Below the pieces are notes generated by a model, which was not told the origin of the DNA, did no database searches, and saw nothing but the letters and a program-made list of their open reading frames with translations. A DNA stretch of 54,082 nucleotides from Chryseobacterium gleum (GTDB lineage: Bacteria; Bacteroidota; Bacteroidia; Flavobacteriales_F; PHOS-HE28), in NCBI GenBank assembly GCA_945872795.1, contig CAMCAZ010000020.1, positions 1 to 54,082 of the forward strand. Reading direction: 5' to 3'. This document shows, piece after piece, positions 1-19,221 of the stretch. Each line of letters starts with the position of its first letter. Within the stretch, counting starts at the first letter, position 1. The translations under genes and the position numbers were made by a program.

Positions 1-160
1 TGTCGCAACCCGTAAGTTCCTTAACCATCTCCGCCCCTCTTTCACCTTCCTGCCGCGTTGGAACATTTCGTCGTAGCGCCCGCTACGCCGTACATGTTCC
101 GCCTTGCATGAAGGCGAAATAGTGGCAGACCTTCAGTTAACCAACTTACGGGTTGCGACA
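1..160. repeat. Long self-complementary element P1 (possibly cut by window edge)
   Basis: The 18 bases at 1-18 (TGTCGCAACCCGTAAGTT) are repeated exactly in inverted orientation at 143-160. The arms keep pairing imperfectly inwards (for example CTCTTTCACCTTC-type sequence on the left against CTATTTCGCCTTC-type on the reverse of the right arm) up to an apex CGTAGCG-CC-CGCTACG at 72-87. The whole 160 bp is therefore one imperfect palindrome. It shares its apex, size and architecture, but not its outer arms, with two elements at 18152-18310 and 18312-18479. No coding potential is seen. It may continue left of the window. Confidence 0.8.
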
Positions 161-235
161 CTAGGCCGGTCATGTCACGGAGTACCCGATCGCCTCGTAG
201 GTGCTTTACTGCATTGAAGCGACGTGGAGTGCAAC

Positions 236-16511: not shown

Positions 16512-17798
16512 TCAGGCCTTGGTGAAACGCAGCGTTCCCTGGCCCGGCACTTCCACGGTGTAGATGCCGGCCCGGAGTGCAGATACCTCCACGGAAAGGC
16601 GGTCCGGCCCGGTGGAACTCCGGACCGTGAGCACCACGCGACCGGTGGCATCCAGGATGCGCACATCGGCACCATGCTTCACACCGGTGAGGTTCAGCAC
16701 ATCCACGGCAGGATTCGGAAAGGCGGCCATGCTCAAGCCGGCCACCTCGTTGAGACCGGTGGTGGAGCGCACATCCAAGACCAGGTTGCCGGGCGCCACG
16801 CCCACGGACACGGTGCTCTGGACCTGTCCGTCAAGGTCCAGCACGTGCAGTTCACCGGTGCTGAAGAAATCCGTGGTGGTGGCGTAGAGCACGTTGTTGA
16901 TGGGATCTTCGATCAACCCATATACACCGGGGCTTCCGCTGAGGGTGTCAGAGACCGTGCCGGTGGCCAGATCGAAGCGGGCCAGTTCGTTCTGGGCGTA
17001 CTCCATGAAATAGACCTTGTCCACGGCACTGACCATGGCGGATGCGGCGCAGCCGGAGTTCAGCGAAATGTTGGTCGTATAGGTGAGCGTACCGGCATCG
17101 ACCCCCACCCGGCTGATGCTGCTGCTGCCGAAATCCTTGTTATTGAAGGCGATGATGTCCCCTTCGTACAGCATCAATCGTTCGGGGTTGGTGCCGTCCG
17201 GACCAAGGTCCACCTCATCGCCATAGGTACCGGTCTGGAGGTCTACCGCACCGACCCGGCCCACCACACTGCCCCACTCGAAGGCATTGCTCACGGCCAG
17301 GTAGGCCTTATCCTCCACCACCAGGACATCCTCGGCGGAAAAGCTCAGACCATCCGCTGGCGCCACGGCGTACAGGAATTCGAGCGTGTTCTTGTCGCGT
17401 ACCTCGAAGTAGTGGTCCAAACCACCCAGTTCGCCGCGGGTCAGGACCAATTGATCGTTCCAGATGGCCAATTTGCGCACACCCTGTACCATGGTCTCAC
17501 CGGTCTGGAGGTAGCTGTCGGCATCGAAGCGCAGGATCCGGTCGTCGGCGGCCACGTAGATCGAGGTCCCGTCCACCAAAACATCCGAGCCGAAGCGGGG
17601 GCCGTTCAGGGTGGCCACGGTCTGGTAGGAACCGCTGGCCGGGTCATAACTGCCCAAGGTCACGGGCACCACCTGGCCACCGCCCCCGAAGTAGTCGAAA
17701 TATCCTTCATTGAGCACCACCACCTGGTGCACGTAGGATTGGGCACTCCCGTGGAGTGCAAGCGCGAGAAGCCCCGCAGAGAGAATGGAACGGTACAT
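16512..17798 (-). CDS. BtuG-like (DUF5074/YncE-type) beta-propeller with T9SS type A sorting domain, under a cobalamin riboswitch
   Basis: The 428-residue product (ATG 17798; an upstream ATG at 17828 would spoil the signal peptide) has a signal peptide ending G-S-A-Q. Residues about 20-340 are repeated propeller blades resembling YncE/DUF5074 proteins (VVLNEGYFDYFGGGGQV, GSDVLVDGTSIYVAADDRILRFD). A type A sorting domain ends it (about 345-428; AAFPNPAVDVLNLTG, ALRAGIYTVEV). In Bacteroides, BtuG is a DUF5074-like surface lipoprotein that binds vitamin B12 with high affinity. The cobalamin riboswitch 130 nt upstream makes a B12-capture role likely here, with T9SS export instead of a lipid anchor. 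No BtuB TonB receptor is adjacent. The family call is by eye. Confidence 0.8.
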   Translation of the reverse strand: MYRSILSAGLLALALHGSAQSYVHQVVVLNEGYFDYFGGGGQVVPVTLGSYDPASGSYQTVATLNGPRFGSDVLVDGTSIYVAADDRILRFDADSYLQTGETMVQGVRKLAIWNDQLVLTRGELGGLDHYFEVRDKNTLEFLYAVAPADGLSFSAEDVLVVEDKAYLAVSNAFEWGSVVGRVGAVDLQTGTYGDEVDLGPDGTNPERLMLYEGDIIAFNNKDFGSSSISRVGVDAGTLTYTTNISLNSGCAASAMVSAVDKVYFMEYAQNELARFDLATGTVSDTLSGSPGVYGLIEDPINNVLYATTTDFFSTGELHVLDLDGQVQSTVSVGVAPGNLVLDVRSTTGLNEVAGLSMAAFPNPAVDVLNLTGVKHGADVRILDATGRVVLTVRSSTGPDRLSVEVSALRAGIYTVEVPGQGTLRFTKA

Positions 17799-17921
17799 GA
17801 ATGGAAGGATTAATGGTGCCACGTTCACCGCGCGGCGTTCACAAGGGTGAAACCAGGGACGTGATCAGGAGCCTGTACCGCAAGCGCCCTGGCCCTGTCC
17901 CGTGGCCATGCTGAATTGCGT

Positions 17922-18124
17922 TGAGGCAGGTCTTCTGGCTCACGACCATACCTGCTGCGCCTTCCCATTCGCCGGATGGCGAACAGTGGCATTGTGCAAC
18001 AGGCGTCGGTCATTTACAGCTGCGGGAACAGCTCCCGGTTCACACGGGATTCCCTTTTAACCGCCAGGCCCTTCCTCTTCAGGAACATGCGTCCCTTCCG
18101 ACGAAGGTCCTTTTGGACCACTAC
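17922..18124 (-). ncRNA. Cobalamin (adenosylcobalamin-type) riboswitch
   Basis: Read on the minus strand this leader contains the conserved core pieces in order: AAAAGGGAATCCCGTGTGAA, CCGGGAGCTGTTCCCGCAGC and TGTAAATGACC, a variable arm with CACTGTTCGCC / GGCGAATGGGAAGG, then the 3' signature GAGCCAGAAGACCTGCC. It ends about 125 nt before the ATG at 17798, which leaves room for an expression platform. Cobalamin riboswitches normally reduce expression of B12 uptake or synthesis genes when the cofactor is abundant. A promoter at 18131-18163 places the RNA start near 18124. Confidence 0.93.
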
Positions 18125-18130
18125 GCGTGG

Positions 18131-18163
18131 CAAAAGTACGCTTCGCCTTAGAGCCAGTTCAAA
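18131..18163 (-). promoter_or_regulatory. Promoter of the riboswitch transcript
   Basis: On the minus strand TTTG (18163-18160) and TACTTTTG (18138-18131) are separated by 21 bp. The -33 box lies inside the left terminal arm of the self-complementary element at 18152-18310. Confidence 0.6.
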
Positions 18164-18310
18164 ATCTCTTCACACGCGTCCCTCGGCCTCCTTTGAGCCC
18201 ATGCTTCGCCGAGAAAATTCCCCGTAGGCACCGCTACGCAGAATTTTTTCGGCCTCGCCTGATCTCAACGTAGTCTCGAGGTCCATCGCGCAAGAGATCT
18301 TGAACAGGCT
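18152..18310. repeat. Long self-complementary element P2
   Basis: The left end AGCCAGTTCAAAATCTCTT (18152-18170) matches the reverse complement of 18292-18310 at 17 of 19 positions. Inner segments also pair (GCCGAGAAAATTC against the reverse of GAATTTTTTCGGC) up to the apex CGTAG-GCACCG-CTACG at 18223-18238, close to the geometric centre. The 159 bp thus form one imperfect palindrome. The apex and its flanks match element P3; the outer arms do not. Confidence 0.8.
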
Positions 18311-18311
18311 T

Positions 18312-18479
18312 TTATACCAATTCGACATTCAATACCAGCCGATCTGCTTGCCCTCTTTCCGGATGACTTCTCCGCCGAACAGGTTCCGTAGGCCCCGCTA
18401 CGCAGCCTGTTCCGCGTATCGTCCTCCGAAAAGATCGCCGCGCATCTCTTGGCCGGCCTTGAATGTCGAAATGGTATTA
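18312..18479. repeat. Long self-complementary element P3, adjacent to P2
   Basis: The left end 18312-18332 (core ATTCGACATTCAA) matches the reverse complement of 18459-18479 at 19 of 21 positions. Pairing continues (CCGAACAGG against the reverse of CCTGTTCCG) to the apex CGTAG-GCCCCG-CTACG at 18387-18402. Length 168 bp. It begins one base after P2 ends, and its right end overlaps the stop codon of the minus-strand gene ending at 18477. Confidence 0.8.
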
Positions 18480-19154
18480 GAACCGGAAGGCCACGGATGC
18501 CTGGAGGGTGACCCCTTGTGTCCTCAACTCCGCTTCTATGTTCGCCAGGTCGATACTTGAACCGTTCAGCTCATACTCCTTGAGCGGCATCCTGTTCGTC
18601 AGATACTGAAGGTGCAGGTGGAGACCCAGCAGGTCGCTGAATTGAAAGGCCACCCCGGTGCTCAATCCGAAGTGCGATCCCCGGTAGCGGGATGACGTCT
18701 CCAGCCCCGGTTCGGAACGATCGATGGTGAGGTTGGTCGCGCCCAAGCGAAGCGAGGCCATCCAGGCAAAGCGGTCCTGGTTGATGAGGTAGAACCTGGG
18801 TTGGATCCCCAGCATGATGATCGCATTGGACTCTGTGGCAGAGGAATCGAGGTAGGCTCCCGGCTCTGCATAGATGCCCAGGCTGAACACACGCGCCAGG
18901 CCGTAGCTCACCTCCACGGGGACGGTCCAGGTGGCAGCGCCATCGTTGGTGGTGGTGGTGATCGGGATGCCAAGGAAGGTCACGGTCTGCTCATATTCCG
19001 TTGCATGCCCACCCGCGGCGAGCCCGATGGCGAGGTGGACCACCCCTTTGTCGTTCACCTGGGACCATGCAGAGAGGGAGAATGAAAGGAACAGGACAGC
19101 AAGGAGGCTCCTCCTCGTAGTTGCCTGGACAGGTCGGCGCATGGCGTTTCTCAT
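18477..19154 (-). CDS. Outer-membrane beta-barrel protein, unknown function
   Basis: The 225-residue product (ATG 19154; 19142 is an alternative) has a signal peptide ending S-A-W-S-Q and then alternating hydrophobic/polar strands with aromatic ends, finishing in the strand GVTLQASVAFRF with a C-terminal Phe, as expected for a small outer-membrane barrel. A short T-T-T-T-N-D-G loop is visible near residue 70. No specific family is recognised. Its TAA stop codon (complement of 18477-18479) is formed by the terminal arm of repeat element P3, so insertion of that element may have set the present C-terminus. Confidence 0.8.
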   Translation of the reverse strand: MRNAMRRPVQATTRRSLLAVLFLSFSLSAWSQVNDKGVVHLAIGLAAGGHATEYEQTVTFLGIPITTTTNDGAATWTVPVEVSYGLARVFSLGIYAEPGAYLDSSATESNAIIMLGIQPRFYLINQDRFAWMASLRLGATNLTIDRSEPGLETSSRYRGSHFGLSTGVAFQFSDLLGLHLHLQYLTNRMPLKEYELNGSSIDLANIEAELRTQGVTLQASVAFRF

Positions 19155-19221
19155 GGATCGAAGATGGCACCCGTCAGGGTGCTCAGGATCCAAGGAATGA
19201 AGGGTTTTCCACCAAGGGGTC

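Follow-up and report, generated by a model that had tools for sequence, protein, structure and literature searches.

The closest known kind of repeat to the elements described here is the long structured MITE, such as ERIC, NEMIS and YPAL. ERIC (IRU), NEMIS (Correia) and RUP elements are non-coding MITEs of 100-200 bp with paired ends, which lie between genes, duplicate a TA target and are transcribed into RNAs predicted to form long stem-loops (PMC2229807, PMC2267715). YPAL (RU-2) of Yersinia is likewise intergenic, a palindrome of ~168 bp with a strong consensus stem-loop (PMC2229807, PMC2267715); it is described as having no TA at the termini and duplications of 3 to 26 bp (PMC2229807). REP ends often supply a TAG stop to open reading frames (PMC3733652). 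The elements of the present study differ from ERIC, NEMIS and RUP, compared by description, in their hosts and sequences, in a length of 160 bp with TNA or CTAG targets, in combining a single conserved core with several terminal repeats that are unrelated to one another, and in a loop plan and strand preference that are constant across a bacterial class; unlike YPAL, their duplication is a 3-bp TNA. They resemble REP and BIME sequences in being palindromic and extragenic and in supplying the stop at some copies of one subfamily (A, below), but REPs measure 20-40 bp and carry GTAG as a foot beyond the stem, whereas here GTAG lies inside the apex stem of a 160-bp element that has direct target duplications and no linked Y1 gene, and that does not qualify as a REP/RAYT element. 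Long palindromic MITEs are thus not new in themselves, and it is usually unclear whether the hairpin matters to such an element or is a by-product. What is new is that conservation extends beyond the ends to the element body, which is maintained as a hairpin of one strand whose tip and loop plan are fixed, under a constraint that seems to belong to the propagation stage.

The window analysed, a stretch of 54,082 nucleotides, is one contig of a 3.3 Mb Chryseobacterium gleum genome assembled in 102 contigs (contig 20, here C20). A reading of this stretch made from the sequence alone had proposed three imperfect palindromes, and all three are real: each forms a long single hairpin, with DNA-fold z values of -8.7, -4.9 and -5.2 for A, B and C, and in each case 0/200 shuffles folded as well as the observed sequence. 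Their limits were set by the ends that they share with other copies, and in all three the minus strand folds better. Element A occupies 1..161, its first base missing beyond the contig start, and is followed by TAG at 162..164, the right half of a CTA...TAG flank pattern typical of its subfamily; a core-model match covers 29-130 (minus, 67 bits), and its minus-strand apex, CGTAGCGCCCGCTACG on the plus strand at 72..87, is near-invariant in relatives. Element B (18151..18311; core-model match at 18182-18281, minus, 68 bits; minus-strand apex CGTAGGCACCGCTACG on plus at 18223..18238) is preceded by the TTA of its left target-site duplication at 18148..18150. A single TTA at 18312..18314 then serves as both the right duplication of B and the left duplication of C, which itself extends over 18315..18476 (core-model match at 18346-18445, minus, 102 bits; minus-strand apex CGTAGGCCCCGCTACG on plus at 18387..18402). 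Either C was inserted beside B or the reverse. The right duplication of C, TTA at 18477..18479, reads TAA on the minus strand, where it provides ORF 18477-19193 with its stop codon. On the other side of B, a cobalamin riboswitch (17908-18088, minus) lies between the element and a minus-strand ORF at 16512-17828. At gathering scores, Rfam matches in the window were confined to this cobalamin riboswitch and tRNA, leaving the elements unmatched, and four element loci searched against Rfam at E up to 0.5 gave no match on the elements. Protein coding was also considered and rejected by inspection: one frame is open in some C copies, but lengths are 161 versus 162 and there are cases of stops in the apex.

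The three palindromes are subfamilies A, B and C of one mobile repeat family. BLAST of the window's genome recovered 24 near-full copies of A (at least 152 of 160 bases aligned, 94-100% identity) together with two incomplete copies: one is truncated where its contig stops, and in the other, on contig C81 (locus L169, about 492-544), only the two ends remain, joined, with the middle lost. BLAST with B plus C gave seven full copies of B, that of the window among them, and defective ones that are repeat-interrupted (C15), internally deleted (C36) or reduced to end fragments (C43, C92); C is present in four copies, one with a small insertion, and one end fragment (C33). The core model made 38 matches in all in this genome at E up to 0.01. 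The exact apex pattern occurs at 22 places, every one inside a recognisable copy; allowing two mismatches gave 53 and 58 matches, which are mostly noise because a reversed control pattern matched more often (182 and 188). As had been noticed from the sequence, the apex CGTAG...CTACG is present in A, B and C, and a longer core, CCGTAGGC-CCGCTACGCAG, is common to B and C. The outer arms were described in the same reading as unrelated among the three and private to each; the former is correct, while the latter is mistaken, because each arm pair is the terminal repeat of a subfamily and recurs in its other genome copies. The contrast then drawn with ordinary MITEs dissolves for the same elements: within one subfamily an element looks like an ordinary MITE, being about 160 bp long, multi-copy, bounded by terminal inverted repeats and too short for a transposase gene.

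Outside this genome, the exact 20-base B/C apex was found in the contigs of 84,980 species in eight stretches, six of them from two members of the genus and two due to chance. The exact apex pattern occurs in 18/35 genus genomes and in 2/23 others, those two not being elements, and the core model matches 33/45 genus genomes; the order is represented by no other genus in this collection. When 198 genomes of the class were searched with the core model, seven had matches at E up to 1e-4: four of the genus, two from one other family (f41) and one from another (f23). One f41 genome (G156) has at least 20 matches (20 scored) and the other (G084) one, while the f23 genome (G176) has four (best E 3.4e-5). 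The three genomes from these two other families of Bacteroidia are AT-rich, and so are the loci fetched from them, palindromes about 160 bp long, their arms unlike those in the window, their helix-loop plan the same and their tip near-invariant. Complete f41 copies end in TACCAA...TTGGTA and are flanked by identical TNA 3-mers in 12/14 cases (by reading); in f23, CTAG stands beside TGGTTC...GAACCA in 3/4 loci and CCAG and CTGG in one, with one locus partly masked. BLAST with one f41 or f23 element per collection found no match in plasmids, phages or viral contigs. A pattern scan of the viral contigs returned 18 stretches, none with a core-model match better than E 0.029, and three of them fold with at least 35 pairs spanning the centre. 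A description of these elements was not found in the literature searched, subscription papers lying outside its scope. There are many subfamilies in three bacterial families, in which plan, tip and strand preference are kept while the arms are replaced, and the covariance model can be used to annotate such repeats in Bacteroidia.

We refer to the preferred strand, reading GCGTAGC...GCCTACG, as R and to the other as F. In nearly all of the listed copies R is the better-folding strand, the exceptions including two degraded copies (L145 and L167) and one of doubtful orientation (L168). When mismatched positions were swapped at random between strands, a control that removes composition effects, R was favoured in 19/19 chosen representatives; in 16/19 at most 5/150 flips reached the observed value, and in the other three the control was not exceeded (9, 19 and 29 of 150). 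RNAalifold gave R/F values of -73.8/-35.1, -84.8/-69.4 and -92.2/-67.8. Cells with G.U on R outnumber those with A.C by 28:12, 9:6 and 19:11, a modest excess given for consensus pairs predicted on both strands.

It had been suggested that the arm pairs may co-evolve, and they do. Alignments in R orientation (38 sequences of C, 9 of B and 22 of A) contain compensatory changes in 29/53, 20/59 and 11/63 pairs, respectively, counts that are inflated by the relatedness of the sequences. In C, 94.1% of cells are paired, as against 81.1% in column shuffles (0/500 reach the observed value) and 29.0-41.4% with partners slid by 1-3 columns, and the covariation score is 0.384 versus 0.155. An alignment of 19 sequences from all groups shows two-sided change in 22/34 pairs, together with an apex in which four of five pairs are invariant in 19/19 sequences and the fifth in 16/19. 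Here the structure beats the shuffle control on all five measures, with 1/500 shuffles reaching one measure. Sliding the partners by -1 matches or beats the structure on 2/5 measures (24 two-sided pairs, 63 further pair types) but falls short in cells paired (58.8% vs 81.1%) and in covariation score (0.304 vs 0.477). The internal loops recur as well: A, C and f41 elements share a loop of about 4/5, a helix of 3 bp, a 1x1 mismatch and a helix of 10 bp. The suggestion that the folded form is under selection is supported, as is the conserved centre. A lack of further copies, an absence of covariation or a match to a described family had been named in advance as signs against the sequence-only reading; what was found is that copies are many, covariation is strong and Rfam is without a match.

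Covariation can in principle arise without selection. Quasi-palindromes are known to be corrected by template switching at replication, and if the palindromes corrected themselves in this manner their arms would drift together and give paired arms of any sequence. Such a process predicts no strand preference, yet R is favoured in 19/19 representatives, and it would erase imperfections, whereas A, C and the f41 elements have kept the same internal loops. Strand and loop conservation speak against template switching as the sole cause, and we consider an origin of the covariation in template switching, with no selection, very improbable.

That the elements are mobile, as was also proposed from the sequence, is borne out by target duplications and by empty counterpart sites. 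Several genomes supplied 88 distinct copies whose ends could be delimited; in this sample, where misjudged ends count as misses, identical 3-mers flank 23/47 C and 5/9 B elements (28/56 together) and 2/32 A elements. The B and C duplications are in direct orientation, mostly TTA or TAA with some TGA or TCA. The flanks of A read CTA...TAG in 14/32 copies, which fits a CTAG target and is ambiguous as to duplication and its length. When the flanks of five insertions were joined and compared with 35 genus genomes, two were matched through the junction by an element-free relative (G015, query 1-206; G029, query 1232-1500). At the first of these empty sites the same last residue (alanine), or valine, followed by a stop is found in 22/29 relatives' loci (hand count), and hence the element occupies the natural stop codon exactly.

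The direct duplications bear on a further possibility, namely that a folded R-strand hairpin of single-stranded DNA is moved by an enzyme that recognises hairpins, in the manner of IS200/IS605, REP-RAYT and integron cassettes. The constant strand preference speaks for it, as do an apex and loop plan that hardly vary while the arms are free, and flanks at the insertion sometimes lengthen the inverted repeat. IS200/IS605, REP-RAYT and integron cassettes are not known to make direct target duplications, however, and such duplications are present here. Nor does the expected enzyme appear at hand: the sole Y1 transposase match of the genome, a 216-codon open frame (L026, contig C11:29538-29762), is near no copy. 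The link to a Y1 or REP-type transposase raised in the sequence-only reading was accordingly dropped, this lone gene standing on a contig with no match in either BLAST search for the elements. The terminal repeats of B, moreover, match an IS5-family element, and we regard movement of a single-stranded hairpin by such an enzyme as unlikely.

Ends resembling those of B are found in another genome of the genus (G009). It carries a broken 0.9-kb element with both ends near the B terminal repeat (over 20 bases, 2 mismatches at one end and 3 at the other) and coding for part of an IS5_3 transposase (2.4e-38); the same genome has only one weak core-model match. A relative of this protein with 49% identity is encoded in the window's genome (C38:20321), where its start, GAACCTGTTTG, immediately follows a TAA stop (by reading). 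By sequence, therefore, the B terminal repeats resemble those of an IS5-family (DDE) element, and the 3-bp TNA-type duplication is a further likeness to that family. The elements differ from it in having no transposase gene inside them and no matching insertion sequence found for A and C. A folded core is not, to our knowledge, a feature of IS5. The eukaryotic PIF/Harbinger transposons with their Tourist MITEs provide a further parallel beside the IS5 family. The transposase domain PF01609 gave 42 matches listed, in 17/35 genus genomes, and the 30 of these loci scanned for ends yielded no autonomous element bounded by A or C ends. A search for C ends in a four-contig genome (G004) gave no autonomous partner that we recognised, the pattern and the fetched regions showing only other repeats and nested insertions.

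Copies frequently abut genes. A script placed 14/31 delimited copies of the window's genome exactly at a stop codon (10/21 A, 2/7 B and 2/3 C), and two additional B copies overlap one (by reading). Non-coding candidate targets within 294 kb of the same genome also fall at stops, in 6/19 cases for CTAG and 26/200 for TWA. The excess over these background sites is weak, and strong stop-codon targeting was rejected as a main claim; a preference for TA targets where the genome is poor in TA, together with the loss of harmful insertions, could account for it. Convergent gene pairs are common around copies. No bias of orientation relative to the neighbouring gene was evident by inspection, made without statistics.

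The young copies of A offer a view of what happens once an element has landed. In 21 of these, 27 distinct variant types occur at 57 paired sites and 20/27 break the pair: the types comprise 14 other mismatches, 6 A.C, 4 G.U and 3 Watson-Crick (that is, compensatory) changes. The dominance of pair-breaking variants implies that the structure was probably selected during spread. Fold and strand preference are seen when lineages are compared, and scarcely among the landed copies. Some constraint may persist after landing, given that variation per site among A copies is lower at paired than at unpaired sites (0.021 vs 0.032) and that 3/27 variant types are compensatory.

These observations also bear on whether, at each site, the hairpin might be kept because it serves the host as RNA of the 3' untranslated region, by protecting mRNA 3' ends, in RNase III processing or in termination. 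Copies are indeed found next to gene ends, often precisely at the stop and commonly between convergent genes, paired sites do vary slightly less than unpaired ones, and such roles are described for ERIC, NEMIS and YPAL repeats (PMC2229807). Against this, most within-subfamily variant types break pairs, the excess at stops is weak when set beside non-coding targets, and the elements occur in both orientations relative to the gene next to them, which leaves the constant strand preference unexplained. A host function as the reason for the hairpin seems to us doubtful.

We consider it rather probable, though by no means assured, that the elements are non-autonomous, MITE-like transposons moved by IS5-like transposases whose propagation also needs a hairpin formed by one strand. 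An IS5-type DDE transposase, supplied in trans, would cut at the terminal repeats, and insertion would take place at TA-containing targets, a 3-bp TNA for B and C and a CTAG-type site for A. The terminal repeats would diverge along with the transposase used. At some point during propagation the R strand would have to fold as a single strand, either as RNA or as single-stranded DNA, and it is because of this, we propose, that inner stems and tip stay paired and that mismatches favour R. Landed copies, which seem to lose the constraint, would then drift. We know of no nameable step in DDE transposition that needs a folded single strand. It becomes testable whether a DDE-moved element needs one, and which protein sees it.

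It is tempting to take the argument further and to view the elements as a class-wide Bacteroidia superfamily in which shape is the unit of selection. The single-stranded R-strand hairpin, its tip and loop plan fixed, would then itself be recognised in transposition, nearly the whole sequence, terminal repeats included, would be free to change, and different transposases (with TNA-type and CTAG-type ends) could carry the same hairpin. We put this forward tentatively, as a possible but not a likely extension of the IS5-like model.

The elements are themselves targets of other insertions. In the window's genome, one C copy (L092, contig C49) has a short GC-rich palindrome, CCTGCCGGCCGGCAGG, inserted in its right arm, and one B copy (L170, C15:40900-42100, about 545-720) is interrupted by a different repeat of MITE-like type, bounded by GAAGCCATCTC...GAGATGGCTTC; a full insertion sequence of 898-900 bp with ends of this type is multi-copy in another genome (G024). 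In the genome examined for a partner of C (G004), two C elements (L290, L291) carry a ~300-bp insertion that is rich in GACCCCGGAGGGGTC repeats and strongly self-complementary, while ten further loci (L284-L289, L292-L294 and L296) belong to other repeat families with TACC-type ends (TACCCTTTCGCCATTCAC, TACCAATGTGACATTCAA). In the same genome, a 1.2-kb insertion sequence with GGGTACCTCTAAAAA ends adjoins the TTA of a C element (L204, contig C2, about 2560).
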